This document shows, one piece after another, positions 9,207 through 42,390 of a stretch of DNA of 60,425 nt. The notes beneath the pieces are model-generated. The model was not told the DNA's origin. It ran no database searches and worked only from the letters and a program-made list of their open reading frames with translations. How positions within the stretch are numbered: the stretch's first letter is position 1; the number at the start of each line of letters is the position of its first letter. The stretch is taken from NCBI GenBank assembly GCA_937923565.1, contig CALDTX010000099.1:1-60425 (forward strand), in the 5' to 3' direction. A program made the position numbers and the translations under genes. The stretch is from an uncultured Granulosicoccaceae bacterium. GTDB taxonomy: Bacteria > Pseudomonadota > Gammaproteobacteria > Granulosicoccales > Granulosicoccaceae.

Positions 9207-9905
9207 TCACTTTTGTGGTTTCTTAGTCACTACGTGCTTTATCGGGCTAAGGTTTATCTCATCGATTATGGCGTGATCGGGTGAATCGATCAGTGTCAAT
9301 ACGGCATTGGCGACATCTTTGGCCTGAAGTGCCATATCGGCCTCTTTGCCCGGCTCAAACGAAAGCGAAGAAAAGAAGTCGGTGCGTACCAAGCCGGGAT
9401 TAACAATGCCCACATGGCAATTAGCATTTGCGCATTCATGTTTTAGCGCTTGTGTGGCCCCACGCAATCCAAATTTTGCAGCGCTGTACACACTGCCGTA
9501 GCGTCCACCTTGTAGGCCCGATTCTGAGCCAATGAAAATCAGATTACTGCGTGGCTGTGCTTTTAGTGTTGGCAGAAGCATCCGGGCGATCAGTAGCGGG
9601 CTGATCAAATTCAGTTGTATGCTGTTTTTAATTTGTTGGGGGGAAAAATTTTCCAGGGAACCGAACTGACCACACCCCGCGTTGCAGATGACATTGCTGA
9701 TGCCAAACGAGCTCATCACATCATTAATGTGCTTCTCTGTTTGCTCGAGATTATTTAAATCGGTGGCTACGTGTGTGCAGTTATCGAGTGGTTCACCGGG
9801 GCTGCGGCTAAGATAAACCACTGCTTGCTTTCTGGCATGCAAGCGTTCAACAATAGCGCGTCCGATACCTTTGCTACCACCTGTTACCAATGTACAGTTT
9901 GTCAT
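9207..9905 (-). CDS. Short-chain dehydrogenase/reductase
   Basis: 232 residues with the classical SDR plan: TGGSKGIGRAI (cofactor glycine motif) at residues 8-18, CNAGCG, and the catalytic YSAAK preceded by IFIGSESG, supplying the Ser/Tyr/Lys set. SRSP after the second strand suggests NADP preference. Substrate unknown. Its ATG overlaps the TGA of the radical SAM gene (ATGA), making it the third gene of a nucleosidase-SPL-SDR unit and suggesting it reduces or oxidises a metabolite connected with that unit. Confidence 0.9.
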   Translation of the reverse strand: MTNCTLVTGGSKGIGRAIVERLHARKQAVVYLSRSPGEPLDNCTHVATDLNNLEQTEKHINDVMSSFGISNVICNAGCGQFGSLENFSPQQIKNSIQLNLISPLLIARMLLPTLKAQPRSNLIFIGSESGLQGGRYGSVYSAAKFGLRGATQALKHECANANCHVGIVNPGLVRTDFFSSLSFEPGKEADMALQAKDVANAVLTLIDSPDHAIIDEINLSPIKHVVTKKPQK

Positions 9906-10897
9906 GACACACTCACACAGGGAAAGTATTGATCTGGCTTTACCGTTTTCAAAATACGAGTTTCACAAAATTTTAGCAAACTGTTTTCCGTTTCAGGGTC
10001 GTAGGAGAGCATGTTGTTGCTGGCCGTTAAATTGGTGGATAACAATTTTGATTCAGGGTAAAGGCGAATCATTTTTTTGTAAAACTGGGTGGGCAATCTG
10101 AACGGACCCAAGCTTATGGAATGTATTTTACTGGTTTCCAGTTGTTCAAAGACGGCGTCGAACATGTCTGCGTATAACGCCTGAGCATTTGTTGCTTTAA
10201 GAATTGGATCGAATCTTAAGCCAACTTTCCAGCCGTGATCTTGCAAAGCTTTTAACGCAGTAATGCGTTTTTCTAAGCTGGCTGTCTTGTGTTCTTCTGC
10301 GGCTACTATTGGTTCGGGCGATAAACTGTAGGCGATAACGCAGTTTGGAATAGCTTGCCGGCTCAGCAGTTGTCTTATTTGCGTGCTCTTCGTGCGGATT
10401 TCCAAATTAGCGCAAGGTAGTTTTTCGAACTGATCTAAGCAGGCAGCAATAAATTCTGTTACAGGCTCCAACGCTAAAGAGTCACAATCGTATCCAGAGA
10501 AAAACCAGCTTTCTTGTTCACCGTGCTGTTGCATTTGTTCGGCTATGTCGGTAAAGAAGTCTTCGTAATTAACAAATACCACATAGTTGGCCGAACGATA
10601 CATGCCTTGGAGAAAACAGTAACGACAATCGTAAATGCAATTGAGCATATGCGAAAAGTAGTAATTGTGGGCACCACCAATATGATAGTCCGGTGGTGTG
10701 GGCAGTACTTTGTTGCCATGTTTGTAGGCAAGTATGAGTGCCGGGTTTGCTTTTTGAGTGCGAAAATTTTGCGAGGGTGCATTGAATACGTCGGTATAGC
10801 GCTCAATTGCTATAACTCTGGCCTTAGGAAAGCGCGTTAATATCGTTTTTACACGGGCATGATGGGCTATCGCGTTTTCAACGTAAATAGTATCCAT
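9902..10897 (-). CDS. Spore photoproduct lyase-like radical SAM protein
   Basis: 331 residues. C87-I-Y-D-C91-R-Y-C94 is the CxxxCxxC motif that binds the 4Fe-4S cluster and SAM, inside NYYFSHMLNCIYDCRYCFLQG. Cys138 in SGYDCDSLALEP lies 44 residues after the last cluster cysteine, the spacing I recall for the hydrogen-donor Cys141 of Bacillus SPL (cluster C90/C94/C97). The protein thus retains the key SPL features although the other genes indicate a non-sporulating organism. SPL reverses 5-thyminyl-5,6-dihydrothymine lesions in DNA; whether this protein does so is unknown. It is 26 bases downstream of the nucleosidase gene and overlaps the SDR gene by 4 bases. Confidence 0.88.
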   Translation of the reverse strand: MDTIYVENAIAHHARVKTILTRFPKARVIAIERYTDVFNAPSQNFRTQKANPALILAYKHGNKVLPTPPDYHIGGAHNYYFSHMLNCIYDCRYCFLQGMYRSANYVVFVNYEDFFTDIAEQMQQHGEQESWFFSGYDCDSLALEPVTEFIAACLDQFEKLPCANLEIRTKSTQIRQLLSRQAIPNCVIAYSLSPEPIVAAEEHKTASLEKRITALKALQDHGWKVGLRFDPILKATNAQALYADMFDAVFEQLETSKIHSISLGPFRLPTQFYKKMIRLYPESKLLSTNLTASNNMLSYDPETENSLLKFCETRILKTVKPDQYFPCVSVS

Positions 10898-10923
10898 GAG
10901 TTTAGTTGGCTTGCGACATCATT

Positions 10924-11730
10924 CTAATAAGTAGGTGCAACACTTTCGAGCTTCGCGTCGAGGTGTGCGTGGATATTTTTTGCATTTTTTAAATTCAGTA
11001 GTGATGTCGCGCTAGGTGGTTCATCCAATAGGTTTGTTAGTCTTTGTAGTTTATCTTTTAGAGCATGCTGTTCTGTTTGCGTGAAATGCAGTGTTGATAT
11101 TAGCTCATCAAATAGTGCCGTTGTCGCTGCTTGATCGATGGTTTTGTTACTTGCCATTGCCAACAGTAGTTGATCGATACACGGAATGGTTTTAAGCATT
11201 AACTCCGGTACTTTATTTTTAGATAATGCCGTCCAGCTGTTTTGCACATTATCGGAAATAACTTTTACGCTGTGTACCAGTGCGGTGTTTAAACGCGGAC
11301 ATGCGGCACTGAAAATACCGGATGCTTCCATGTCGTAAACAAATTCGCTTTTGTATTCGTCGCAGGGCTTGTCAACCGTTAATATTTCTTTAAGTTCTGC
11401 TTTTGGGCTGTTCCGGCTTTCTGGTAAATGTGGATACCATTTTCGATTACTGCCTTTATCGCGTATCGTGTGAGCCATTACTACCGTGCCAATAGGGAGA
11501 TCTGCCCCGGCAATGCCAACATTTATAATGCTCGTTGTTTGCGGATATAGGTGTAAAAACAGGTTTACAGAGGCCGCTGCCGATAATTTACCTAATCCGC
11601 ATTGCAACAGTCGTACTTTATCGCCATCATAGAGGTTCAGGTTGGCCGTTTTTACAAAGCTTAAGCGGTAATTATCCACCAAGCATTTAGATTCAATTGG
11701 AAGGGCAGTTATGATACAAGGCTTGGTCAT
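10924..11730 (-). CDS. Nucleoside phosphorylase/nucleosidase superfamily protein
   Basis: 268 residues from the ATG at 11730 (MTKPCIITALPIESK); a longer frame to 11775 adds 15 residues that lack homology. INVGIAGA corresponds to the ribose/phosphate loop of the MTA/SAH nucleosidase fold, FVYDMEASG to the purine-site Met-Glu motif, and KVISDN to the catalytic Asp region. The last 80 residues are a helical extension (about 190-268) not usual for MTAN. It could cleave a nucleoside such as methylthioadenosine, SAH or 5'-deoxyadenosine. It is first in the unit with the SPL-like and SDR genes and divergent from the YbjQ-domain genes. Confidence 0.82.
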   Translation of the reverse strand: MTKPCIITALPIESKCLVDNYRLSFVKTANLNLYDGDKVRLLQCGLGKLSAAASVNLFLHLYPQTTSIINVGIAGADLPIGTVVMAHTIRDKGSNRKWYPHLPESRNSPKAELKEILTVDKPCDEYKSEFVYDMEASGIFSAACPRLNTALVHSVKVISDNVQNSWTALSKNKVPELMLKTIPCIDQLLLAMASNKTIDQAATTALFDELISTLHFTQTEQHALKDKLQRLTNLLDEPPSATSLLNLKNAKNIHAHLDAKLESVAPTY

Positions 11731-11795
11731 CTGAATATTGTAACCTGTGCACCCAAGCGATGCAGCTTTTAGCAATGAAGGAGAATGAATAGTCG

Positions 11796-12113
11796 ATGTT
11801 GGTCACTAATTTGGAAATACTTCCAGGGCACAAAATCGTACGGCATGTTGGTTTGGTGCAGGGAAGCTCCGTGAGGTCCAAGCATGTTGGTCGGGATATC
11901 ATGGCAAGCTTAAAAAATATCTTTGGTGGAGAATTGCAAGGGTATACCGAGCTATTGCAGGAATCCCGGGAGGAAGCCACCAAACGTATGATGTTACAGG
12001 CGGAGTCTATAGGTGCTAATGCAGTGCTTAACGTTCGCTACAGCACCTCAAGTATTGCAGCCGGCGCTGCTGAAATTTTTGTTTATGGCTCTGCTGTAGA
12101 GCTGGACATATGA
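11796..12113 (+). CDS. YbjQ/UPF0145 family protein
   Basis: 105 residues, the standard length for YbjQ (PF01906). It begins MLVTNLEILPGHKIVRHVGLVQGSSVRSKHVGRD and contains ESREEATKRMMLQAESIGANAVLNVRY, the most conserved stretch. The family is predicted to form a pentameric dodecin-like or MTH-type fold and is loosely annotated as heavy-metal binding; no biochemical role is established. GAAGGAG lies 11-17 bases before the ATG, a long spacing. The ATGA overlap with the next gene, a second YbjQ-domain protein, indicates a co-translated pair that may form a mixed oligomer. Confidence 0.9.
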   Translation: MLVTNLEILPGHKIVRHVGLVQGSSVRSKHVGRDIMASLKNIFGGELQGYTELLQESREEATKRMMLQAESIGANAVLNVRYSTSSIAAGAAEIFVYGSAVELDI

Positions 12114-12571
12114 TTCAGCTTGGCATTTTTATCAGTCTGTTGATTGTCGGATTTCTGTTCGGCCGTATCGCTGAAAAAAGACATTTCAAGTCGATTGTTG
12201 CGCGGGAATTAGCATCTAATTCTCTGGTTGCTGTTGCCAGTCGTTTTCCGCCCGAAAACGAAAATTACGAACAGCATTTGGTGGTTGGCAATGTGGTTGT
12301 AGCATCCGACTACTTTAAATCGGCGATGGCGAGTCTCATTAATTTCTTTGGCGGCAGGGTTACGCCGTTTGAGTCTTTGTTGGATCGTGCCAGGCGTGAA
12401 GCCATTTTACGGATGAAGCACGAAGCCAGTTTATTAGATGCAAAATTTGTATTTAATGTAAAACTTGAAACTTCGCGAATTGCCACTGGTCAGGTGGGTG
12501 CAGTTGAAGTCGTTGCCTACGGCACGGCTTTAACCAAACCGGCAATGCACGTCGAAGCCATAAGTTCATAA
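12110..12571 (+). CDS. Membrane-anchored YbjQ-domain protein
   Basis: 153 residues. An N-terminal membrane helix (IQLGIFISLLIVGFLFGRIAEKRH, residues 2-25) precedes a YbjQ-like domain at about 50-150: VVGNVVVASDYFKSAMASLINFFGG and RARREAILRMKHEASLLDAKFVFNVKLETSRI line up with the upstream paralogue. It is therefore probably held at the cytoplasmic face of the inner membrane and may recruit the soluble partner encoded just upstream. The start overlaps the stop of that gene. The following gene encodes a membrane M48 peptidase 67 bases away on the same strand. Confidence 0.82.
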   Translation: MIQLGIFISLLIVGFLFGRIAEKRHFKSIVARELASNSLVAVASRFPPENENYEQHLVVGNVVVASDYFKSAMASLINFFGGRVTPFESLLDRARREAILRMKHEASLLDAKFVFNVKLETSRIATGQVGAVEVVAYGTALTKPAMHVEAISS

Positions 12572-12638
12572 GCGGTTGCATTATTTAAAATTAAGGCGGT
12601 AAGTTCTGCTGCAAACAAACAATGACTGAGTAAAAACC

Positions 12639-13499
12639 ATGGAGTTTGAAAACAGGCAGCCTCAAGAAGGAATCAATACCGTGCGGGAAAACCCTTTGCT
12701 GGTGTTTTTCAAGCTTCTTGTTGGTGCGATTATCATTATCGTTGTCCTTGTGATAATCCTACAGTTCTCCGGTAGCTGGATTGCCAAGAAAGTTCCGTTT
12801 CGTTATGAGTTAGCGTTAATGGAAAAAGTCGATATGGAGTTTGGCACTACCGACAACTCAGCTGAATTGGAAGCCTATCTAAATGAATTAGGGGTAAGAG
12901 TTGCGCAGGCTTTATCATTACCGGAAACCATGTCGGTTCAGGTGCATTACGATAGCTCGGAAGTATTTAATGCGTACGCAACTATCGGGGGTAATCTTTT
13001 ATTCTATAAAGGCTTACTCAAAAAAATGCCCAATGAAAATACCCTGGCAATGGTCATGGCACACGAGATCGCTCATGTTATGCACAGAGATCCAATAGCA
13101 GGGCTTGGCGGTGGTGTTGCCAGCATGGTGGCTTTAATGGTTCTAACCGGGCAATCAGGTACCGGTGCAGCTGGCAATGTATTAAACCAAACTGGCATGC
13201 TGACCAGCACGCAATTTACACGGAAAATGGAAGAGGCTGCCGACAAAGCAGCCCTTGCGGCCATGGTAAATTTATACGGGCATACAAACGGCGCGAACAC
13301 ACTGTTTGAACTCATGGAAAATGTAGCCGGAGATAGTGCGGTCCCCAACTGGCTGGAGCGGTTTGCCGCAACGCACCCGTTAAGTGCCGACAGAGCTGAA
13401 TCAGTGGTGTTGCAATCCATTGAAAACAACTGGCCTACCGACGGTGTCTTAACAGCATTGCCTGAAAACTATTCTTTGTGGTTACGAGGTAATCTTTAG
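12639..13499 (+). CDS. M48 family membrane-associated metallopeptidase
   Basis: 286 residues. A helix at residues 21-43 (LVFFKLLVGAIIIIVVLVIILQF) anchors the protein. The zinc site is HEIAH at 142-146, and Glu in RKMEEAADKAAL near 198 is the likely third ligand. THPLSADRAE near the C-terminus is the conserved M48 segment. The layout resembles LoiP/YggG and BepA-type peptidases, but it has no lipobox and carries a cytoplasm-proximal N-tail. Possible role: quality control of envelope proteins. It follows the YbjQ pair. Its stop codon shares bases with that of the convergent nudC gene. Confidence 0.88.
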   Translation: MEFENRQPQEGINTVRENPLLVFFKLLVGAIIIIVVLVIILQFSGSWIAKKVPFRYELALMEKVDMEFGTTDNSAELEAYLNELGVRVAQALSLPETMSVQVHYDSSEVFNAYATIGGNLLFYKGLLKKMPNENTLAMVMAHEIAHVMHRDPIAGLGGGVASMVALMVLTGQSGTGAAGNVLNQTGMLTSTQFTRKMEEAADKAALAAMVNLYGHTNGANTLFELMENVAGDSAVPNWLERFAATHPLSADRAESVVLQSIENNWPTDGVLTALPENYSLWLRGNL

Positions 13500-33094: not shown

Positions 33095-33646
33095 ATGAAC
33101 GCGAAAGTACTACGTCTGAATAAGGCCGGTACTCCGATAGCCTGGCTAAGCTGGCAAGAAACAGCAACGCTTTTGGTCAAGGAACAGGTTATTTGGAGTT
33201 TGGGTGAAGTAGTTCACACCCTGCACGGTGGATACAACAAGCAAGGTGAACGTTCACAACTAAACTTGCCCAGCATCATTGCGTGCGATGGCCGAGTCGA
33301 TAGCAAAGCGTTCACCCCGCCACTCACTAATTCTTTACTCTTCGCCCGCGATCAATACGTTTGCTTGTATTGCGGGGTAGAGCATAGCTCCCGCGACTTA
33401 TCCAGAGATCATGTAAAGCCAACATCGCGTGGTGGTCGGGATCGCTGGACCAACTGCGTTACCGCCTGCAGGCGTTGTAACAATCGCAAAGGTAGTAAAA
33501 CACCCGAAGAGGCAAAAATGGAGCTGTTAGCAGTGCCGTTCGCACCGAATCGTTATGAGTTTTTCTATCTCTCAAACAGAGATGTTTTAGCGGATCAAAT
33601 GGAGTTTTTGAAAGCGCGTTTTTCGTCGCGCGTTAGTTGGTCTTAG
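33095..33646 (+). CDS. HNH endonuclease domain protein
   Basis: 183 residues. The HNH core at about 90-135 has two CxxC pairs and the catalytic residues: CLYCGVEHSSRDLSRDHVKPTSRGGRDRWTNCVTACRRCNNRKGSK, with Asp-His, Asn and the C-terminal Asn-Arg-Lys segment. The N-terminal region (VLRLNKAGTPIAWLSWQETATLLVKEQVIW) is the conserved partner region of a widespread chromosomal HNH family of unknown role. It is not near restriction or phage genes, which argues against a mobile nuclease. Confidence 0.9.
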   Translation: MNAKVLRLNKAGTPIAWLSWQETATLLVKEQVIWSLGEVVHTLHGGYNKQGERSQLNLPSIIACDGRVDSKAFTPPLTNSLLFARDQYVCLYCGVEHSSRDLSRDHVKPTSRGGRDRWTNCVTACRRCNNRKGSKTPEEAKMELLAVPFAPNRYEFFYLSNRDVLADQMEFLKARFSSRVSWS

Positions 33647-33663
33647 CGCGTTCTTTACACCCA

Positions 33664-35151
33664 TTAGCTGTTGGTGTTTTTACGGTGCAATTGCAGCAAT
33701 AACTTGTTGGTGTAATCTACAAACAACGTTGATGAATTTCCATACCCGGAAATTTGTACCACATAATTTCCTGCCGAAGCCACTACCGTGAAGTATCGAT
33801 TGTTAGTGTCACTGAGTACATCGCCAACAACGTCGGTGATATAGCGATCAATAGCGAATGGTTGCGATTGATTGTTGGAAACCTTGGCGACTGAATTACG
33901 CATTATCGCATTGGGTTCTGCGGTGTTGTCATGCAGTGTTTGCGCAAAAAGGGCTGCAGTTTCTGCATTGTCTGTGCTGATCAACATCAGTTCGTTCGGT
34001 GGGCGTTGTGGTTGGGTTTGATCATACTGTTGCACCGCTACCATCGCTGTAATGAGTCGTGTAAAACCGTCAACGGCTGCATCGCGCTTAGAGGGGTCGG
34101 CGCGTAAGTTCACACCTTTTAAGGGTGAAGTTTGAACGTTGGCCCAAGCGCCTTGCTGCCAAGGGTGGCGAACGCTTGCGTTTGTTTGTAGCAGATGTTT
34201 ATTGCGTGCTTCGCGCTCAGTGTCCGGGTAGCTTTGTGGATCCAGAATCTGAATGGGATCTTGAGGCGGGTTAGTGAGCACGTGATCGATTAGCGCCTTA
34301 CCATTTGGCCGACTGGCCAGGTTGTTCATGAAGCGCTCACCTTCAATATAAGAGTATTCCAATACATTACGACTTATCGCTTGCACAGATTGTGTTAATT
34401 GATTGGGTGGGTTTGGTCGGCTAAACATAAATTCATCCAGCGCTTTTAATCCGTGTAAACAATTTGCTTTAGCGCAAATATTACGGGTAACGTGCTGTGC
34501 GTGACCTTCAAAGGCCGCTGATTGCGCAAACGATGCACGAAAGTTTAGTTCTCTGTTTTCATGGATGCCGTAGCGAACATCATCGGCTGCATGTACCAAC
34601 TCATGAATCAGTAAAGCCAGTAGTGCTGCATCCTGAATATCAACATCATTGGGCAGGGAGCGTTGGTAGTTGTCGAGCAAACCCTTCGATAACATGACTT
34701 CTTTTTGTCGTGTTGAATACAGCGCTGCATAGGTGCCAGACTGACTATTCATGACCGTTGATAAAAAGTGCTGCGCAAATTGTTTGTTAGAAAATTGCTT
34801 ATTGATCAGCCTGCCGGTTTCGAAACCAACTTCAGTGGATATTTTTGCATCCTGAGCCAATGAAACTTTAACGTGCCCTAGCGGTATGTTGGTTTCTTGC
34901 TCTACCAGCAAACGAGCTTTTTCATATAATGGAAAAACCCGCTGTTGCCAATTGATTCCTCTGCTTAACGCCGGCGTGGCAGTCGCTTTTGGGGCTGTGC
35001 TTTGTTCGGTGCTGATGCTTGCGGTGAGGTCTCGATCAATGACACGGATGGGTGCGGGTTGTGGGGTGCTTGTTTGACAACCTGTGACTGCGAGCGTACC
35101 TAGAATTAGCAATACGCGGAAAGGGTAGGTAGAACGGTTTTGGAGCGACAT
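33664..35151 (-). CDS. Lipoprotein with HELVH metallopeptidase-like motif
   Basis: 495 residues. Lipobox AVTGC with Cys25 at the end of a hydrophobic signal marks an outer- or inner-membrane lipoprotein. HELVH at 183-187 and a downstream EGHAQH (Glu215) form a plausible zincin site; flanking ALLALLIHELVHAADD suits a helix. The C-terminal part (about 370-495) is a separate domain with LMLISTDNAETAALFAQ and a strand-rich end. I do not recognise the family. It probably acts in the periplasm as an endopeptidase or a catalytic-like binder. It is downstream of, and codirectional with, the GH16 gene but separated by a strong terminator. Confidence 0.8.
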   Translation of the reverse strand: MSLQNRSTYPFRVLLILGTLAVTGCQTSTPQPAPIRVIDRDLTASISTEQSTAPKATATPALSRGINWQQRVFPLYEKARLLVEQETNIPLGHVKVSLAQDAKISTEVGFETGRLINKQFSNKQFAQHFLSTVMNSQSGTYAALYSTRQKEVMLSKGLLDNYQRSLPNDVDIQDAALLALLIHELVHAADDVRYGIHENRELNFRASFAQSAAFEGHAQHVTRNICAKANCLHGLKALDEFMFSRPNPPNQLTQSVQAISRNVLEYSYIEGERFMNNLASRPNGKALIDHVLTNPPQDPIQILDPQSYPDTEREARNKHLLQTNASVRHPWQQGAWANVQTSPLKGVNLRADPSKRDAAVDGFTRLITAMVAVQQYDQTQPQRPPNELMLISTDNAETAALFAQTLHDNTAEPNAIMRNSVAKVSNNQSQPFAIDRYITDVVGDVLSDTNNRYFTVVASAGNYVVQISGYGNSSTLFVDYTNKLLLQLHRKNTNS

Positions 35152-35246
35152 GGGTCGAGCACAAGCTGATATAAGATGTCAGCCAGTCTACCGATCTTGG
35201 ATGCCATTGCGATAGCGTCAGGGGTGGTTTTTGATCTATGGTAGGC

Positions 35247-35273
35247 AAAAAAAAGGCGGCCTATGAGGCCGCC
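35247..35273 (-). terminator. Rho-independent terminator of the GH16 gene
   Basis: On the minus strand GGCGGCCT-CAT-AGGCCGCC, a perfect 8-bp GC-rich stem (35255-35273) with a 3-base loop, is followed by eight T residues (complement of the A-run 35247-35254). It begins 20 bases after the GH16 stop codon. Confidence 0.9.
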
Positions 35274-35293
35274 CTGTGATCGTTGTCCAATTT

Positions 35294-36751
35294 CTAATTT
35301 TTCTCGTATGCCCGTATGTAATCAATTTGGTAACGAGCCGGAAACGGCGTGCTGCCATCCGGGTCGCCGGGCCACCATCCTCCAACCGCCAGATTCACCA
35401 GCAGATACATGTCTTCCCACGAAACATTACCGTCGTTGTGGGTGTTTCTCAATTCGCCGTCGACATACCAAGATAGCTTGCCGGGTTCCCACTTAACTGC
35501 GTAAGTGTGGAAATCTTGAGAGTAATCAGGGCCCCAAGCCTCGTAGGAGGGTGAGGAGCGGAGCGACCAATTGTCGTAGTAGTGATAAGTGTTGTAAGCA
35601 ACTGTGGGCTTATCACCGATGTACTCTACGATGTCGATTTCTGGCCGACGGTCGTTATCGTTTTGATGCAGTAACCAGAGCGCCGACCAAAGCCCTTTGC
35701 CTTTGGGCAGCTTTGCGCGCATTTCCACATAGCCGTAACGCATTTTGAATTTGTTGAATGTGGTTAGGGCACCCGACAAATACGGTTTGTTGTTTGCACT
35801 GCTCTTGAGGTGGTCGGGTGTGCGAATGGCCGTTATGGTCAGGTGATTGCCGTCGAATTCAAACGGTGAGTGACCGAAATCCGGGTTGTTGATTCGGTCC
35901 ACATAGTATTGCTGTTCGCCATTGATCGTCCAGTTAGCACCCCAACGGTAGTTTGAGTTCCATTTGGATGTATCCAGACTGAAGTCGTTGAATTCATCGG
36001 AAAACACTAAGCTGTATCCGTCTGGGGCATTGCCATTACTGGCTGCACGCAGAACCGATTCATCGTTTTGAATGACTGCCGTCGTTGATTGCTCGGCTGC
36101 GTTGTTAGCCGCAGTATTAACAACAACTTCTTCAGATTTGGCGGAGTACAAGCCATTGTGAGTGGCCGCAACAATTTGGAAGTGGTAGTCCTGATTCCAA
36201 ACTAAGCCTTCGCTTAAAAATTCATTTTGAGTGACAAACGCGATGTAGTTGTTGTCGCGATAAATGTTATAGCCCTTGATGTTATCGCTGGCGCTAGCTT
36301 GCCAAAATAGTTTCGCTGCGTTGCCGTTCTGCACTTCGGCGCGAAGGGCTGTTGGCGCTGCAGGTGGCGCAGAAGGGTCGGTAGCGGGTGGTGGCGCTTG
36401 CGTGCTTGGCGCGTTCGCTGCGGCCAACGTGACGCTACTGGTGGCAGAAACCGTGTTGAAGTTCTTGGCTGCGTCGAAAGCGACTATGCCGTAGTCGTAG
36501 GTTTGACCGGACGATAGGTTTGTATCGATATATTGCGTGCTAAATACTGTGACGTAGTAGACACCGTTGCGGTAGATGTTGTAGCCGAGAACGCCAACAT
36601 CGTCCCAAGGCTTGTTCCAGCTAACGCGAACTGAGCTGCTGTCGATCGCCAAAGCACGAACATTATTAACGGTGGACGGCTTCTGTGTATCTGCAAGCAG
36701 AGAAGTGCTGGCCAAACAAAGGACCAAGCCAAGCGCAAAAAGTCGATTCAT
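35294..36751 (-). CDS. Secreted GH16 beta-glucanase with two N-terminal fibronectin type III domains
   Basis: 485 residues. Signal peptide MNRLFALGLVLCLASTSLLA is followed by two FN3-like domains (about 25-110 and 128-213; VRALAIDSSSVRVSWNKPWD and ALRAEVQNGNAAKLFWQASA), a linker, and a GH16 domain from about 245 to the end. The catalytic motif EIDIVE is at 371-376, with Glu371 the nucleophile and Glu376 the acid/base. The presence of the extra residue in the motif points to laminarinase or agarase-like GH16 rather than lichenase. It is exported and degrades beta-glucan or galactan. A LacI-type palindrome lies about 200 bases upstream. Confidence 0.93.
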   Translation of the reverse strand: MNRLFALGLVLCLASTSLLADTQKPSTVNNVRALAIDSSSVRVSWNKPWDDVGVLGYNIYRNGVYYVTVFSTQYIDTNLSSGQTYDYGIVAFDAAKNFNTVSATSSVTLAAANAPSTQAPPPATDPSAPPAAPTALRAEVQNGNAAKLFWQASASDNIKGYNIYRDNNYIAFVTQNEFLSEGLVWNQDYHFQIVAATHNGLYSAKSEEVVVNTAANNAAEQSTTAVIQNDESVLRAASNGNAPDGYSLVFSDEFNDFSLDTSKWNSNYRWGANWTINGEQQYYVDRINNPDFGHSPFEFDGNHLTITAIRTPDHLKSSANNKPYLSGALTTFNKFKMRYGYVEMRAKLPKGKGLWSALWLLHQNDNDRRPEIDIVEYIGDKPTVAYNTYHYYDNWSLRSSPSYEAWGPDYSQDFHTYAVKWEPGKLSWYVDGELRNTHNDGNVSWEDMYLLVNLAVGGWWPGDPDGSTPFPARYQIDYIRAYEKN

Positions 36752-36953
36752 GGGTATGTTTGCTTAGTTGTTTCTATTGGGCGATGGTGTTTGTATGAGT
36801 CTAAGAATAAGCAATGTATTTTGCCGCTGTTATCTTAGTAAGCATAGTCGCATCACCTTAAATAAAGCTGAAAAATACAGTGGAGACATGTTGAAAGTTT
36901 CATTTAATTCAACAACATGCGCTTCACTGTGTTACGCCGGGTCGGAAATATAG

Positions 36954-36965
36954 TGAACCGGTTCA
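36954..36965. promoter_or_regulatory. LacI/GalR-type palindromic operator candidate
   Basis: TGAACCGGTTCA is a perfect 12-bp palindrome with a central CG step, as found in many LacI-family operators. It lies 203 bases upstream of the GH16 start, within a 283-base intergenic region bounded on the other side by the end of the AcuI gene, so GH16 is the only gene it could control here. No LacI-family regulator is encoded in this window. A second dyad, TGTTGAA-N12-TTCAACA, occurs at 36889-36914. Confidence 0.45.
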
Positions 36966-37034
36966 GTCAGTCAAAGCGAGAATCGGGCCCAGACGCTGCT
37001 CTATTAGCGCTAATTTGATTGCCGAATATTAACG

Positions 37035-38021
37035 TTAACTTACCTTGACCACAGTGCGGCCTTGTACTTCACCGTTGATAATCGGTTTAGCCAATGCGGG
37101 TACTTCGCTTAAAGCCACTTCATTCACCATTTCTTCCAGTTTTGCCATTGGCAGCTCATTGGCCAAGCGTTGCCAAGCCAGTTGTCGACGGCTGGTTGGG
37201 CACATTACAGAGTCGATGCCGAGCAAGCTTACGCCTCTGAGTAAAAATGGAATAACGGTGGTTTCCAGCCCTGCGCCACCGGCTAAGCCAATCGCAGCAA
37301 CCGATTTACCGTATTTCATTTGGGTCAGAATGTTTGCCAGCATGCTACCGCCGACTGAATCGACACAACCGGCCCAGCGCTCTTTGTTCATGGGTTTGCC
37401 ATTTGGCGTGCTGATATCTTCTCTGGCAATGATGGTTTTAACGCCCATGGAGTGAAGGTAGTCGGCGCTGGCTGCTCTGCCCGTTACCGCGTCCACTTCA
37501 TAGCCGTTAGCAGCCAGAATGGCGCAGGCGACAGAACCGACGCCACCGGCAGCGCCGGTGACCAGCACAGGCCCGTCGTCTTTGTGCATGCCTTGGTCTT
37601 CGAGCGCCATAATGCCGAGCATGGCTGCCATGCCTGCTGTGCCTACTGCCATGGCTTGACGAGTCGAGATGCCGGCAGGCAAAGGAACCAACCATTCGCC
37701 TTTCACACGGGCTATTTCTGAATAGCCACCCCAATGCACTTCACCCACGCGCCAACCGGTTAAAACGACCTCATCGCCTTCTTTGAAATTCGGGTTATCG
37801 CTTGCGCTGACTTTTCCGGAAAAGTCGATACCGGGCACATGTGGGTAATTTCTGACCAAACCACCCAGCCCGTTCAGAACCAAGCCGTCTTTGTAATTGA
37901 GTGTGGAGTATTCCACGGCAACCGTTACATCGCCTTCGGGTAAGTCAGCTACGGTGATATCAATCAGATTGGCTTCAACCTTTCCGTCTGCGTTTTTATC
38001 AATCTGAATTGCTTTTGTCAT
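37035..38021 (-). CDS. acuI: Acrylyl-CoA reductase AcuI / YhdH-type quinone oxidoreductase
   Basis: 328 residues, the length of AcuI/YhdH. The N-terminal region has EYSTLNYKDGLVLNGLGGLVRNYPHVPGIDFSGKV, the YhdH/YhfP signature, and there is an NADPH-binding segment VTGAAGGVGSVACAIL. No zinc-binding cysteines of the classical dehydrogenase are present. AcuI reduces acryloyl-CoA to propionyl-CoA with NADPH and is used in DMSP degradation and in detoxification of acrylate. No other DMSP gene is nearby, so detoxification or an unassigned quinone reductase role is equally possible. Confidence 0.9.
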   Translation of the reverse strand: MTKAIQIDKNADGKVEANLIDITVADLPEGDVTVAVEYSTLNYKDGLVLNGLGGLVRNYPHVPGIDFSGKVSASDNPNFKEGDEVVLTGWRVGEVHWGGYSEIARVKGEWLVPLPAGISTRQAMAVGTAGMAAMLGIMALEDQGMHKDDGPVLVTGAAGGVGSVACAILAANGYEVDAVTGRAASADYLHSMGVKTIIAREDISTPNGKPMNKERWAGCVDSVGGSMLANILTQMKYGKSVAAIGLAGGAGLETTVIPFLLRGVSLLGIDSVMCPTSRRQLAWQRLANELPMAKLEEMVNEVALSEVPALAKPIINGEVQGRTVVKVS

Positions 38022-38178
38022 CGTTCACCTGTTCGATAGAGGACGGAATTGAGGGAAGCGCTGGTAAGCGCGAATTAACTAGCATGAGATGCTAGCAAAA
38101 CTGAGTATCAAAGGATACTTATTCGACTAAAACAGATGAGCACGCGCTGCGAAAAGCAATTCGTGAAACCCCGGAAAA

Positions 38179-38553
38179 TCAGGGTTGAAACTGAACCATG
38201 CGAACGATCGGGCTGATCATTACATACACAATAAAGGCGCAGAAAGCGAAGACCAAAACGCTAATAAGCGGGCGTTTGGCAATAGCTGCCCAAAGGCCAG
38301 GTTCTTTGCCTTGAGCACGGCGTTCTTCGTATTGCCTGCGCATGTTCACTGCGCGCTCTTTTTGGTATTCGTTGATCAGTGTTTTGCCGCGTTGGAGGTC
38401 TTGTTCATCGTGAACCCAAATCCCCGGCATGGATATACCCCAATTACCGGCGTTAGTTTCGTAAAAGTCGATGTGTTTTAACGTGAGTAGCTCGCGTATT
38501 TCGTCGGCTTCGTCGTCAGGCACATTGCGCAGTTTAAAAAGTAAGGCTGGCAT
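38179..38553 (-). CDS. DUF6164 family small membrane protein
   Basis: 124 residues. The N-terminal half (LLFKLRNVPDDEADEIRELLTLKHIDFYETNAGNWGISMPGIWV) is the conserved soluble part of DUF6164, which recalls a DUF2007-like signal-transducing fold. Basic residues precede a single C-terminal helix (RPLISVLVFAFCAFIVYVMISPIVRMV, about 93-119), so it is tail-anchored in the inner membrane. Function unknown. It stands between the AcuI gene and a glycosyltransferase gene on the same strand, 27 bases after the latter. Confidence 0.87.
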   Translation of the reverse strand: MPALLFKLRNVPDDEADEIRELLTLKHIDFYETNAGNWGISMPGIWVHDEQDLQRGKTLINEYQKERAVNMRRQYEERRAQGKEPGLWAAIAKRPLISVLVFAFCAFIVYVMISPIVRMVQFQP

Positions 38554-38580
38554 CGCGGGAATTGAGCGTATTGAGTTGGC

Positions 38581-39414
38581 CTAGTATAGCGCTGTTATAT
38601 CGTTGTACAACGCTTCGAGTTCAGTTACCCGTTCCGCGTTGCCGCGTTTGATAGCGCCTTGGCACAGGATATTGAATTTTTGTTCGAAGACGGCAAGCGT
38701 AAGCGCTGTTTGCGTTTCGCTGAGCACGTTCTGGCGCAAAAGTTTGGCCAAGGCCTGCAGTCGGAATCTGTCCATGCCCCAATATTTCTTTGACAGCTGG
38801 TCTTCGTGGCCGCCGGTTTTTTGCAGTAATGCTTCATCAATATAAAGCACTGGTTCGTTCGCGCAAATGCGCAACCAAAGGTCATAGTCTTCGCAGGCTG
38901 GCAAAGACTCGTCAAAAAGCCCAACTTCATCCAGTAGTTCTTTTTTTATAATCGTGGCAGAAGGAGAGATAGCACAGAGGTGTAACGATTGTTCAAAGAT
39001 ATCGCCACCGCGCTTTTTGTGTTTGTTCATAGGATTCACGCGCTTGCCATTTCTTATCCAATGTTCGTCACAATGACAAAGGCGGTAGTTTGGGTTAGCC
39101 AGAATAGCGTTAGCTTGTGTTTCCACTTTATGGGTAAACCATTGGTCGTCTGAATCCAGAAAAGCAATCCAATGGCCGGTTGCTTGTTTAATGCCTGTGT
39201 TTCTGGCATGCGAAACGCCGTTATTGGTTTGCGTTATTAGCGTAACGGTTGGGAAGTGCTTTTTGATGTGCGCGGTTGTACCGTCTTCTGATCCGTCATC
39301 TACGACGATTATTTCATGCAAGGGCTGTGATTGTGAGAGTGCAGATTGTACGGCCAGGCTTAATGATTCACATCGATTTAACGTAGGAATGATTAATGAA
39401 ATTTTTAGCGGCAC
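38581..39414 (-). CDS. Family 2 glycosyltransferase
   Basis: 277 residues. The GT-A fold is clear: ISLIIPTLNRCESLSLAVQSALSQ, the nucleotide-binding EIIVVDDGSEDGT and the metal-binding AFLDSDDQW, with CEDYDLWLRI as acceptor-site helix. Proteins of this type add sugars to surface polysaccharide or lipid carriers on the cytoplasmic side. No neighbouring glycan cluster gives the donor or acceptor. Confidence 0.92.
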   Translation of the reverse strand: MPLKISLIIPTLNRCESLSLAVQSALSQSQPLHEIIVVDDGSEDGTTAHIKKHFPTVTLITQTNNGVSHARNTGIKQATGHWIAFLDSDDQWFTHKVETQANAILANPNYRLCHCDEHWIRNGKRVNPMNKHKKRGGDIFEQSLHLCAISPSATIIKKELLDEVGLFDESLPACEDYDLWLRICANEPVLYIDEALLQKTGGHEDQLSKKYWGMDRFRLQALAKLLRQNVLSETQTALTLAVFEQKFNILCQGAIKRGNAERVTELEALYNDITALY

Positions 39415-39448
39415 AGCGTGTTTGATTCTGTTGTCGTGAACGCTTAGT

Positions 39449-40354
39449 TTAGAGCGTTAACCATGAATCTAAAATAAGGCCATAGCTCGCTGCCACTAAC
39501 ATTAAGCGATCGTTGTTTGATAAATCAGGGGAAAGCCAAATAACGTTGTTGCCTTCAACTAAAGACACAGCGGCTAATTGTTGCGTATCGTTTTGTATGC
39601 TGATACCGGGGATTTTGTCACCAACAATAGCTGCTGCAGGTACCGTTGGTGTTCGACCTGCCGTGCTAATGCTATTTGTTGATGATTCCGCAACGGCAAC
39701 AACGTTAAGTGCAGAGCCTGGCCGAGTAATACTTAACTTTGGCGTACCTTCCGCCGTTTTATAATACTCAAGCGTCCAGCTTTGATCGGCGTCATTGATC
39801 GTGCAGATGAGCCTTGATGCCAACCAATCGCCGTAGTATTCGACCTTGCTGGCTTTGTCATTACCTGAAAGCCCGATTTGCGTGCGGGAAACTTCGCTAT
39901 TTTCCAAAAATACCGAATTGGTGACGCATGTCGAATTAATGCTTGGACCGTTGCTTTGTGCTATCGCATAGGAAAAACCGCCTTGGTCTTCAATGCGGTA
40001 TTGATCGTAAGTCACTTTTTCAATATTGAATTCTTGATTAAGTATGAGGTTCCAGAATGTGTTGTCGACGGTCTTTCTTCTAATAGGCTCTTGCTCGGTC
40101 TCTGACGCTCTGGTGCTTACGGTTTTCTCGATGGCTACGTTTGTTGACTGATATTCTCCAAGCGGAACATTGTAGAACTTAGCCTTGTAGCGTCGAACCG
40201 GCGCTTTGACCTCAATTTTACTGGCGCGCAACTCAAACCCTTCGTCTAATACAATTGTGCGGTATTCCCCACGAGTCACAACACAGGCCGACAGCAAAAT
40301 CGGCGTTAGCGTTAACACAGTAAGAAATGGGAGACTTTTTTTCATTGGCGTCAT
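39449..40354 (-). CDS. Hypothetical lipoprotein
   Basis: 301 residues from the ATG at 40354; another ATG at 40345 (MKKSLPFLTVLTLTPILLSACVV) is equally possible, whereas a longer TTG frame to 40465 would place 37 extra residues before the signal. LLSAC is a good lipobox. The mature part is beta-rich with a conserved-looking segment about residues 150-260 (FLENSEVSRTQIGLSGNDKASKVEYYGDW). I do not recognise a family. It is divergent from the TerB-like gene with about 180 bases between and downstream genes run away from it. Confidence 0.75.
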   Translation of the reverse strand: MTPMKKSLPFLTVLTLTPILLSACVVTRGEYRTIVLDEGFELRASKIEVKAPVRRYKAKFYNVPLGEYQSTNVAIEKTVSTRASETEQEPIRRKTVDNTFWNLILNQEFNIEKVTYDQYRIEDQGGFSYAIAQSNGPSINSTCVTNSVFLENSEVSRTQIGLSGNDKASKVEYYGDWLASRLICTINDADQSWTLEYYKTAEGTPKLSITRPGSALNVVAVAESSTNSISTAGRTPTVPAAAIVGDKIPGISIQNDTQQLAAVSLVEGNNVIWLSPDLSNNDRLMLVAASYGLILDSWLTL

Positions 40355-40532
40355 TGGAAAAGTGGATCTCAAACTATAGCTTAGAAGGATGGAGTGGGTA
40401 TGAATTGCTGGTGAGTATATACAGCTAGCGCTTAACGATGGCTGAATGTTACGTGATCGGCGCAATGTGGTCTTGGAAAGCTCGAATACCTTCTGAAAAA
40501 ATTCGTTAATTGGGATCCAGAGGCAATACTAA

Positions 40533-41216
40533 ATGAACGCAAAAGATATTTTGAACAACTTACTGCAGAATTCTCAGCAGGCCACACAAAAAGGTTTAGA
40601 GCTCGCTGAAAATAAACTCGGTGTGCCGGAATCTGGCCCAGAGCGCGATGCAATGCTAGGCGGTATGGGAAAAGGTGCATTGGCCGCAGGCGCGGTTGCT
40701 TTATTGCTAGGTACCAAAAGCGGACGTAAGTTAACTGGCAGCGCTGTAAAAGTGGGTGGTTTGGCAGCGGTTGGTGGGCTTGCTTACAAGGCGTTTACCG
40801 ACTGGCAAAATCAACAAGCAAAGCCGGTTGAAGATATCGGTACTCCTGTTGCTCAACTACCCGATGCCGCCGCACAGAAACGCAGCGAAGTGTTGGTTCG
40901 AGCCATGATAGCCGCTGCAAAAGCTGATGGGCATATCGATCAAAACGAACAAGAAACCATTACAAAGCAAATTAATAGTTTGGGTCTAGAACAAGATTTT
41001 TCATCTTTCTTGTTGGCCGAACTGAATGCACCTGTGAATGTTGCTGAATTAGCCAATGCGGCTGACTCACCGGATGCTGCGGCTGAAATATATTTGGCTT
41101 CGGCTATGGTCGTTGATTTGAATAACGCTACTGAGCGAGCGTATATGGACGCTTTAGGTAAAGAGTTGAAGCTCGATCCTGCATTGCTCAAGCAATTAGA
41201 GGACGCTTTGGTTTAA
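40533..41216 (+). CDS. DUF533/YebE-type protein with TerB-like domain
   Basis: 227 residues. The N-terminal part has the DUF533 pattern (AKDILNNLLQNSQQ; MLGGMGKGALAAGAVALLLGTKSGRKLTGSAVKVGGLAAVGGLAYKAF), a glycine/alanine-rich membrane segment around 45-90. The C-terminal TerB-like helical domain (VRAMIAAAKADGHIDQNEQETITKQI; YLASAMVVDLNNATERAYMDALGKEL) spans about 115-227 and carries acidic residues that could bind metal. E. coli YebE is induced by envelope stress. No partner is evident in the neighbourhood. Confidence 0.9.
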   Translation: MNAKDILNNLLQNSQQATQKGLELAENKLGVPESGPERDAMLGGMGKGALAAGAVALLLGTKSGRKLTGSAVKVGGLAAVGGLAYKAFTDWQNQQAKPVEDIGTPVAQLPDAAAQKRSEVLVRAMIAAAKADGHIDQNEQETITKQINSLGLEQDFSSFLLAELNAPVNVAELANAADSPDAAAEIYLASAMVVDLNNATERAYMDALGKELKLDPALLKQLEDALV

Positions 41217-41246
41217 GGCCTTTAGTTTAGGCCTATAACTTAGGCG

Positions 41247-41280
41247 TTTAACGTAGATTTTTAACGTAGACTTTTAACGT
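41247..41280 (+). repeat. 13-bp tandem repeat overlapping a stop codon
   Basis: TTTAACGTAGA occurs at 41247-41257 and 41260-41270, and TTTAACGT again at 41273-41280, a period of 13 bases. The third copy contains the stop codon (minus strand TAA at 41274-41276) of the AstE-like gene. This resembles the tandem duplication over the stop codon at 5941. Confidence 0.8.
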
Positions 41281-42284
41281 TGCACTTCATCAGCTAACAA
41301 AGCAACGCATTCACCAGCACTGATATGTCCGCCGTAATGGCGGGCAAGTAAAACACCGTTTCGGTTGGCTACAATGGTTTGTACTGGCGAGCCCGATGTT
41401 GTCGGGTCCACAATATAGGCAATTGGGTTACCACGATAAACCTCTTCGCCCACTTCTTTGCAGGGCTGTAGTAGCCCCATAGTCGGTGCCAGTAAGTAGC
41501 AGTTTTCGTTATTCACTTCCAGCATGCGGGTAGAGCACAACTGCAGCTCTGTATTGAGTAATCCCAATTGAAGCAAGGCATTGTTACAGCCGGTAAGCGC
41601 AAGATTCACAAGCGTTGCTGATGCTGTACCGCCGCCACCTAATAAAGTAGTGATAAACGGTATGTTGGCTTGTTGGGTAGCAAAAGCCAGGGACCCTGGC
41701 AAACAAGGAAGCAGCCTGACGCTATTGGGGGCGCCAAATGCAATCATGGTTTGTTCCGCTGTTTCCTGTAGCGACCGGTTTTCCGGGTTTTGGTAAATTG
41801 CCGCGCTTGCAGCGTAACTGCTTGTTGCATCCCCCGCCCGTAGCTCAATAACTGCATCTGAAATACCGATAATGTTTTCGCTGAAAAAAGCGGCAATCTG
41901 TTCAGTGACGCAGCCCTGCAGATTTCCCGGAAAACTGTTGTTGAGTGATTTTTCGTAATTAGCCCATCCAATGCGGCCCGATTGCTGAGCCAGCGGGTTT
42001 GCTGTGGGTAGCAGTATCAGCCTGCCAGAAACATCTTGGATTTCAATCTGCCGGGCCAATTGTTGAACAGCCAGTGTGCCATTGAATTCACAATCTTCAA
42101 CGCTCGCAATCAGCGTAACCGTAGGGCCTGAGCCGTTACTGATAACAGTCAGCGGTATTTGCACAATGCCCAGCGCAGAGCTTGGCTGCGCCGTGGGAAC
42201 GCTAATAAAGCCATTTTGTTTGCCTGGTGCGTCAAAATCGATGGTGCAACTGATGCTGCGGGGTTTTAAGGCATTGCTTTTCAT
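41274..42284 (-). CDS. Succinylglutamate desuccinylase/aspartoacylase-family pseudoenzyme
   Basis: 336 residues from the ATG at 42284. Fold-defining blocks of the M14-like AstE/AspA family are present in order, but the metal site is gone. The usual GxHGDEYEG is ASVEDCEFNG (His to Glu63, Glu to Asn68), the usual DLHSGG is ELRAGD (His to Arg149), and the substrate-binding NMNRAFPG is SLNNSFPG (Arg to Asn116). The C-terminal beta domain (YRGNPIAYIVD; GGHISAGECVALL) is intact. It cannot work as a zinc deacylase as seen; a binding or regulatory role is inferred. Divergent from the SLC13-type transporter gene. Confidence 0.82.
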   Translation of the reverse strand: MKSNALKPRSISCTIDFDAPGKQNGFISVPTAQPSSALGIVQIPLTVISNGSGPTVTLIASVEDCEFNGTLAVQQLARQIEIQDVSGRLILLPTANPLAQQSGRIGWANYEKSLNNSFPGNLQGCVTEQIAAFFSENIIGISDAVIELRAGDATSSYAASAAIYQNPENRSLQETAEQTMIAFGAPNSVRLLPCLPGSLAFATQQANIPFITTLLGGGGTASATLVNLALTGCNNALLQLGLLNTELQLCSTRMLEVNNENCYLLAPTMGLLQPCKEVGEEVYRGNPIAYIVDPTTSGSPVQTIVANRNGVLLARHYGGHISAGECVALLADEVQR

Positions 42285-42390
42285 GGTGTTACCATTGTAT
42301 GTCCGCATTGGGAGCCGCTAGGCTGAGAACAGCCCGATACGGCAGTGCCCCAGTAGAATGCAAAAGGCGTGCAACAGGCTCAATTTACGT

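Follow-up and report, generated by a model that had tools for sequence, protein, structure and literature searches.

A nucleosidase, a spore photoproduct lyase-like radical SAM protein and a reductase form a conserved gene unit in Gammaproteobacteria that is associated with a family-2 glycosyltransferase

The 60,425-nucleotide stretch analysed here (the window; contig CALDTX010000099.1, from an uncultured bacterium of the Granulosicoccaceae) carries three closely packed genes on its minus strand. The first (10924..11730) encodes a 268-aa protein resembling 5′-methylthioadenosine/S-adenosylhomocysteine (MTA/SAH) nucleosidases (MTAN); its ATG is at 11730, and an in-frame TTG start is found at 11775. 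The second (9902..10897) specifies a 331-aa radical S-adenosylmethionine (SAM) protein related to spore photoproduct lyase (SPL), and the third (9207..9905) a 232-aa oxidoreductase of the short-chain dehydrogenase/reductase (SDR) type. The nucleosidase gene is followed after 26 bases by the radical SAM gene, which overlaps the SDR gene by 4 bases. A preliminary description of this DNA had proposed these three reading frames, their spacing and their family assignments. The coordinates agree with it, and the families are borne out by matches to PF01048 (28 bits), PF20903 (69.2 bits, above the gathering score of 27) and PF00106 (118 bits), respectively. The source genome, of the Granulosicoccus group, is 74.8% complete. 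A search of the open-access literature found no paper on the unit, on SPL in non-spore-formers or on SPL with partner enzymes.

Gene neighbourhoods were clustered for 80 loci, most of them from metagenome assemblies; the labels Myxococcales (L041) and Planctomycetota (L092) may reflect faulty binning. Among 78 related loci, 56 have the nucleosidase gene immediately before the radical SAM gene, and 51 have the SDR gene immediately after it. Recurrence of the three-gene order in other genomes, proposed earlier as a test of the unit, was found in dozens of Gammaproteobacteria; the arrangement is therefore not a chance one, and it is widely conserved in this class. The analysis also identified a fourth partner, a family-2 glycosyltransferase (GT2), whose gene heads the operon in 41 of the 78 loci, mostly overlapping or nearly abutting the next gene. 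In these 41 loci it is directly upstream of the nucleosidase gene or separated from it by one small phosphatase-like gene. The intervening gene, PTP/DSP-like, is present in ten loci (L042, L051, L055-L057, L060, L061, L073, L081 and L091).

The GT2 gene had been overlooked in the preliminary description although it lies inside the window, at a distance of some 27 kb from the three-gene unit (38581..39414, minus strand). Its 277-aa product aligns with the operon GT2 proteins at E 2.4e-123 and matches PF00535 with 105 bits; it has an acidic DxDD motif, and residues D97, D99 and D100 (L038 numbering) are invariant across the GT2 alignment. This small protein resembles envelope and secondary-metabolite glycosyltransferases, and scores 71 bits against the arsenosugar glycosyltransferase model TIGR04283, under the cut-off of 182. 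The GT2 gene is far from the unit in other Granulosicoccus genomes too; in two genera of the same family (G029, G033) it adjoins the nucleosidase gene. It lies elsewhere in the genome in G215, G098 and others, and the association holds where the genes are unlinked (L244-L248 and the present window). Within Granulosicoccus, GT2 belongs to a conserved block (window positions 33095-42308) that includes an AspA-like gene (41274-42308), GT2 itself, a 124-aa reading frame (38179-38553), a GH16 gene (35294-36751), a further reading frame (33664-35151) and an HNH gene (33095-33646). A plasmid collection searched for GT2 relatives at E 1e-30 yielded none.

Co-occurrence was assessed in 232 evenly drawn gammaproteobacterial genomes. 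The SPL-like protein is present in 40 of them and falls into three clades: clade I, to which the protein of the window belongs (31 genomes), clade II (7) and clade III (2). GT2 is found in 37 genomes, and all 37 also have an SPL-like protein (Fisher p 8e-40, a value not corrected for relatedness of the genomes, with 24 families represented). All three clades are paired with the same GT2. Only clade I loci went into the GT2 profile, which makes the occurrence of GT2 alongside clades II and III an independent result. The typical operon of clade II genomes consists of GT2, a nucleosidase lacking the helical tail described below, and SDR. On the GT2 tree the clade II genomes are scattered, requiring 6 changes of which at least 3 are forced by well-supported branches; this indicates that clades I and II were exchanged while GT2 stayed. 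In one group, glutaredoxin and DUF1820 genes are found immediately before GT2, with either of these clades (L050, L095-L097, L108-L110, L213). As candidate general partners, these two genes, the PTP-like phosphatase and a tRNA-dihydrouridine synthase (see below) were dropped, being lineage-restricted.

Two kinds of natural fusion join the same proteins. In G102 and G217 the nucleosidase is fused to GT2 (493 aa); the clade III SPL-like gene of these genomes precedes an aldo-keto reductase gene. Fusobacterium vincentii (L254:7098-9898) has a 623-aa fusion of nucleosidase and SPL-like protein, followed by SDR; the 2.1-Mb record that holds it is filed as a plasmid and is probably the chromosome. 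These data show that GT2, nucleosidase, SPL-like protein and reductase are linked at the gene level, and they bear on whether the gene order could be passive synteny of functionally unrelated genes. The flanking genes are conserved as well within Granulosicoccus, as such synteny would have it. It is nevertheless hardly credible in view of the overlapping genes in many families, the co-occurrence of unlinked genes, the fusions and the at least 3 supported clade exchanges in which GT2 was kept. A 300-genome phylum sample gave neither the SPL-like protein nor GT2 outside the source genome itself, the listed rows being of one class and having little bearing on others. No nucleosidase is annotated in the stretches viewed around TIGR03886-type SPL-family genes of Roseomonas and Gloeothece.

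The reductase of the window has the hallmarks of a classical SDR: the TGxxxGIG motif is present as TGGSKGIG, and at least 99% of 71 relatives share each of Asn99, Ser127, Tyr140 and Lys144. In other loci the reductase is not always an SDR. In L049, L069 and L107 the gene after the SPL-like gene encodes an aldo-keto reductase, and in L227/L229 it encodes one of a different kind. That two kinds of aldo-keto reductase replace the SDR suggests that the position is defined by a function and not by one gene, and the occupation of one slot by two reductase folds argues for a carbonyl reduction step.

The AlphaFold2 model of the SPL-like protein, built on 55 relatives, has a mean pLDDT (per-residue confidence) of 92. 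It superimposes on the solved SPL structures with Z 34.8 and a root-mean-square deviation of 2.5 over 322 residues, at 16% identity; the next-best radical SAM folds reach only Z 15.5. On this model, then, the protein has the SPL fold throughout. The CxxxCxxC motif of the [4Fe-4S] cluster (C87, C91 and C94; 10616..10639, minus strand) is where it had been placed (residues 87-94) and is invariant in the 55 relatives. Also shared with SPL (SplB) are the counterparts of Geobacillus Y96, D143, T173, K174, S195, E206, R215 and P235. The resemblance is one of fold, which by itself does not make the protein an SPL: it scores 83.8 bits against the spore photoproduct lyase model TIGR04070, where the curated cut-off is 400, and 64.7 bits against the SPL family protein model TIGR03886, where it is 437.55.

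The residues for hydrogen transfer differ. The cysteines of Bacillus subtilis SPL are C91, C95, C98 and C141 (PMC3742179), so that cluster and hydrogen donor are 43 residues apart. The preliminary description correctly noted a Cys138 in the SPL-like protein, but took its spacing of 44 from the cluster to equal that of SPL and the residue to be the counterpart of Cys141. Neither claim stands. In single-sequence, profile and multiple alignments, with a one-residue gap, the Geobacillus donor C140 (141 in B. subtilis) pairs with Tyr136, and Cys138 aligns with Ser142, two residues past the donor position; both residues lie in the motif SGYDCDSLA (Tyr136 to Cys138, 10484..10492, minus strand). Tyr136 is shared by all clade I proteins, whereas clade II has Gln at this position. 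Four clade I proteins (L063, L084, L103, L105) have Gly or Ala in place of Cys138; the residue is Thr in the Fusobacterium relative, Ser in clade II and Gly in clade III. At the position of the relay Tyr of SPL (99 in B. subtilis, 98 in Geobacillus), every one of the 55 clade I proteins in the alignment has Phe (Phe95). Hydrogen donation of the SPL type, through an equivalent of Cys141, is unlikely given these substitutions. Another cysteine, Cys327 (9917..9919, minus strand), is kept in 53 of 55 clade I, 7 of 7 clade II and 2 of 2 clade III proteins, and is absent in Fusobacterium.

These features bear directly on the idea that the protein is a genuine lyase of spore photoproduct or other UV lesions, engaged in DNA repair. 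Its PF20903 score and its top structural matches, to solved SPLs, are what such an enzyme would give. Yet the score under the TIGR04070 cut-off, the loss of donor Cys and relay Tyr and the variability of Cys138 make this very improbable. Moreover, the hosts are non-spore-forming Gammaproteobacteria, among them dark deep-sea mussel gill symbionts (L078, L079), and the partners of the protein are a nucleosidase, a reductase and a glycosyltransferase. Of the two roles offered in the preliminary description, repair of a DNA lesion or the making or breaking of a modified nucleoside, UV-lesion repair finds no support, given the GT2 partner, the reductase swaps and the gill symbionts, while construction of a modified, nucleoside-derived compound comes close to the reading that we favour.

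The nucleosidase falls short of the cut-offs for MTA/SAH nucleosidase (TIGR01704, 24.4 bits against 73.8; NF004079, 29.3 against 169), and its top NCBIfam match, futalosine hydrolase, is also far under cut-off. Residues 1-199 of its model superimpose on MTA/SAH and futalosine/aminofutalosine nucleosidases with Z 21-23, and on the short Chlamydia MTAN CT263 with Z 22. Glu13, Glu135, Ser159 and Asp160 are invariant in 55 relatives and align with the catalytic Glu, Glu, Ser and Asp of MTAN. The C-terminal tail noted as an oddity in the preliminary description is real: residues ~196-268 (10927..11145, minus strand) form helices in the AlphaFold2 model, beyond the MTAN fold. The tail was matched in 38 of the 38 clade I genomes searched and in none of the 7 clade II genomes (Fisher p 2e-8, again not corrected for relatedness), and the two states are found in one genus (G075, clade I with tail; G201, clade II without). 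In G084 a reading frame between GT2 and the SPL-like gene (L240:5396-6058) matches the tail alone, the catalytic part having given way to unrelated sequence. Because it tracks clade I and is all that is kept in G084, the tail probably serves the partnership with the clade I protein.

The interpretation that we tentatively prefer, at somewhat less than even chances, is that the unit encodes a small biosynthetic pathway of radical 5′-deoxyadenosylation, adenine removal, reduction and glycosylation. In the order presumed here, the SPL-like enzyme would cleave SAM and add the resulting 5′-deoxyadenosyl radical to an unsaturated acceptor, giving a 5′-adenosylated intermediate. The shortened MTAN-like nucleosidase would then take off adenine to leave a 5-deoxyribosyl adduct whose anomeric carbon is free; the SDR, or in some lineages the aldo-keto reductase, would reduce the ring-opened aldehyde or otherwise adjust the sugar, and GT2 would glycosylate the product. 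The retention by the nucleosidase of the Glu13/Glu135/Ser159/Asp160 set of adenosine-type nucleosidases counts in favour of this scheme, and its fusion to GT2 in G102 and G217 links base removal to sugar transfer.

There are precedents for such a succession of enzymes. The futalosine pathway (MqnE-MqnB) is a known pathway with the same enzyme classes. The nucleosidase fold matches futalosine/aminofutalosine hydrolases and the short CT263; the unit differs in having no MqnE-like gene, an extra helical tail, and GT2 and SDR as partners. The formation of the hopanoid side chain follows the same logic: HpnH attaches 5′-deoxyadenosyl to diploptene and HpnG takes off the adenine; ribosylhopane then undergoes reduction by an as yet unidentified enzyme, and glycosylation by HpnI follows (PMC12583986). 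This sequence, like the unit, combines a radical SAM enzyme, a nucleoside phosphorylase-superfamily enzyme, a reduction and a glycosyltransferase, although HpnH belongs to another radical SAM family than the SPL-like protein. As HpnH Cys106Ala still makes product (PMC12583986), a variable Cys138 would be compatible with adenosylation. The hopanoid pathway itself was rejected as a general companion, HpnH being above cut-off in only 6 of 43 genomes carrying the unit. In the arsenosugar pathway ArsS adenosylates arsenic (PMC12159101), and the glycosyltransferase of TIGR04283 is related to GT2. ArsS (TIGR04167) exceeds its cut-off in 29 of 43 unit genomes and 1 of 14 control genomes, the controls not being a gammaproteobacterial background rate. 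It is absent at that level from all Granulosicoccus genomes searched, the genus of the window, and the arsenosugar pathway was rejected on this ground; for the SPL-like protein itself, no match to TIGR04167 was listed at E 0.1. Most likely, the pathway would be an analogue of hopanoid, futalosine or arsenosugar synthesis, with an acceptor that is not generally a hopanoid.

A different role for the nucleosidase would follow if the SPL-like protein abstracted hydrogen from its substrate, as a lyase or in a rearrangement or C-C chemistry. The nucleosidase would then clear inhibitory 5′-deoxyadenosine, and SDR and GT2 would tailor the product. MTAN-type nucleosidases can act on 5′-deoxyadenosine, and a dedicated enzyme is plausible in that the only other PNP-family genes found in the incomplete source genome are two, one for a methylthioinosine phosphorylase and the other a 493-aa reading frame resembling AMP nucleosidase. 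The Fusobacterium fusion and the coupling of the tail to clade I fit this scheme equally well. However, the clade II nucleosidase stays beside GT2 and SDR with the SPL-like gene elsewhere, and the clade III nucleosidase is fused to GT2. The nucleosidase thus appears tied to the sugar of the product and not to a by-product. That it is fused or adjacent to GT2, and in clade II stays apart from the SPL-like locus, favours, without proving, cleavage of an adduct, and we regard by-product clearing as an unlikely though serious alternative.

Modification of a nucleic acid was also considered, with the SPL-like enzyme acting on a pyrimidine or dihydropyrimidine base of tRNA or DNA, and GT2 and the reductase finishing a hypermodification. 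The substrate of SPL is a 5,6-dihydrothymine lesion in DNA (PMC3742179), and the whole SPL fold is retained. A tRNA-dihydrouridine synthase gene (PF01207) directly follows the unit, with clade I or clade II, in L103 (4908-5870), L105/L239 (5981-6937 in L105) and L216 (4241-5206). These loci represent one genus only, and MTAN-type nucleosidases work on small nucleosides, while the small GT2 resembles glycosyltransferases of envelope and secondary-metabolite synthesis. This explanation seems improbable, more so than by-product clearing.

The preferred scheme, a pathway built on radical adenosylation, also has points that weigh against it. It names no acceptor, and we infer its chemistry from the partner enzymes. 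Neither HpnH nor ArsS is closely related to the SPL-like protein, and the chemistry of SPL is hydrogen abstraction, not radical addition. Three of the 40 genomes with an SPL-like protein have no GT2 (G095, G213, G255), nor was a GT2 match found within the 17-kb stretch around the Fusobacterium vincentii fusion. The clade II SPL-like gene (411-476 aa) usually lies outside the operon, elsewhere or on the opposite strand, and the "nucleosidase" reading frame of G084 retains only the tail.

Divergent to the unit in the window lie an M48 peptidase gene and a tandem pair of YbjQ-like genes (11796-13499), an arrangement kept in the Granulosicoccaceae only. These upstream genes and the downstream GNAT and NUDIX genes were rejected as partners, since beyond this family none of them is again found next to the unit. 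A defence system was likewise rejected, none of the four proteins having a PADLOC match.

SPL-like proteins of non-spore-formers are annotated as DNA repair enzymes, yet those of the present group have nucleosidase, carbonyl reductase and glycosyltransferase genes as firmly linked partners. It is possible, if still short of probable, that about one-sixth of the sampled Gammaproteobacteria possess a new pathway in which SPL-fold proteins are 5′-deoxyadenosyl transferases for a metabolite or lipid, three clades serving one GT2, with a fused version in Fusobacterium. Natural fusions and cultured hosts put the question within direct experimental reach. If this interpretation is correct, the SPL fold would gain a biosynthetic role, and a glycosylated, sugar-extended compound would be predicted to be common to many Gammaproteobacteria, including marine Granulosicoccus.

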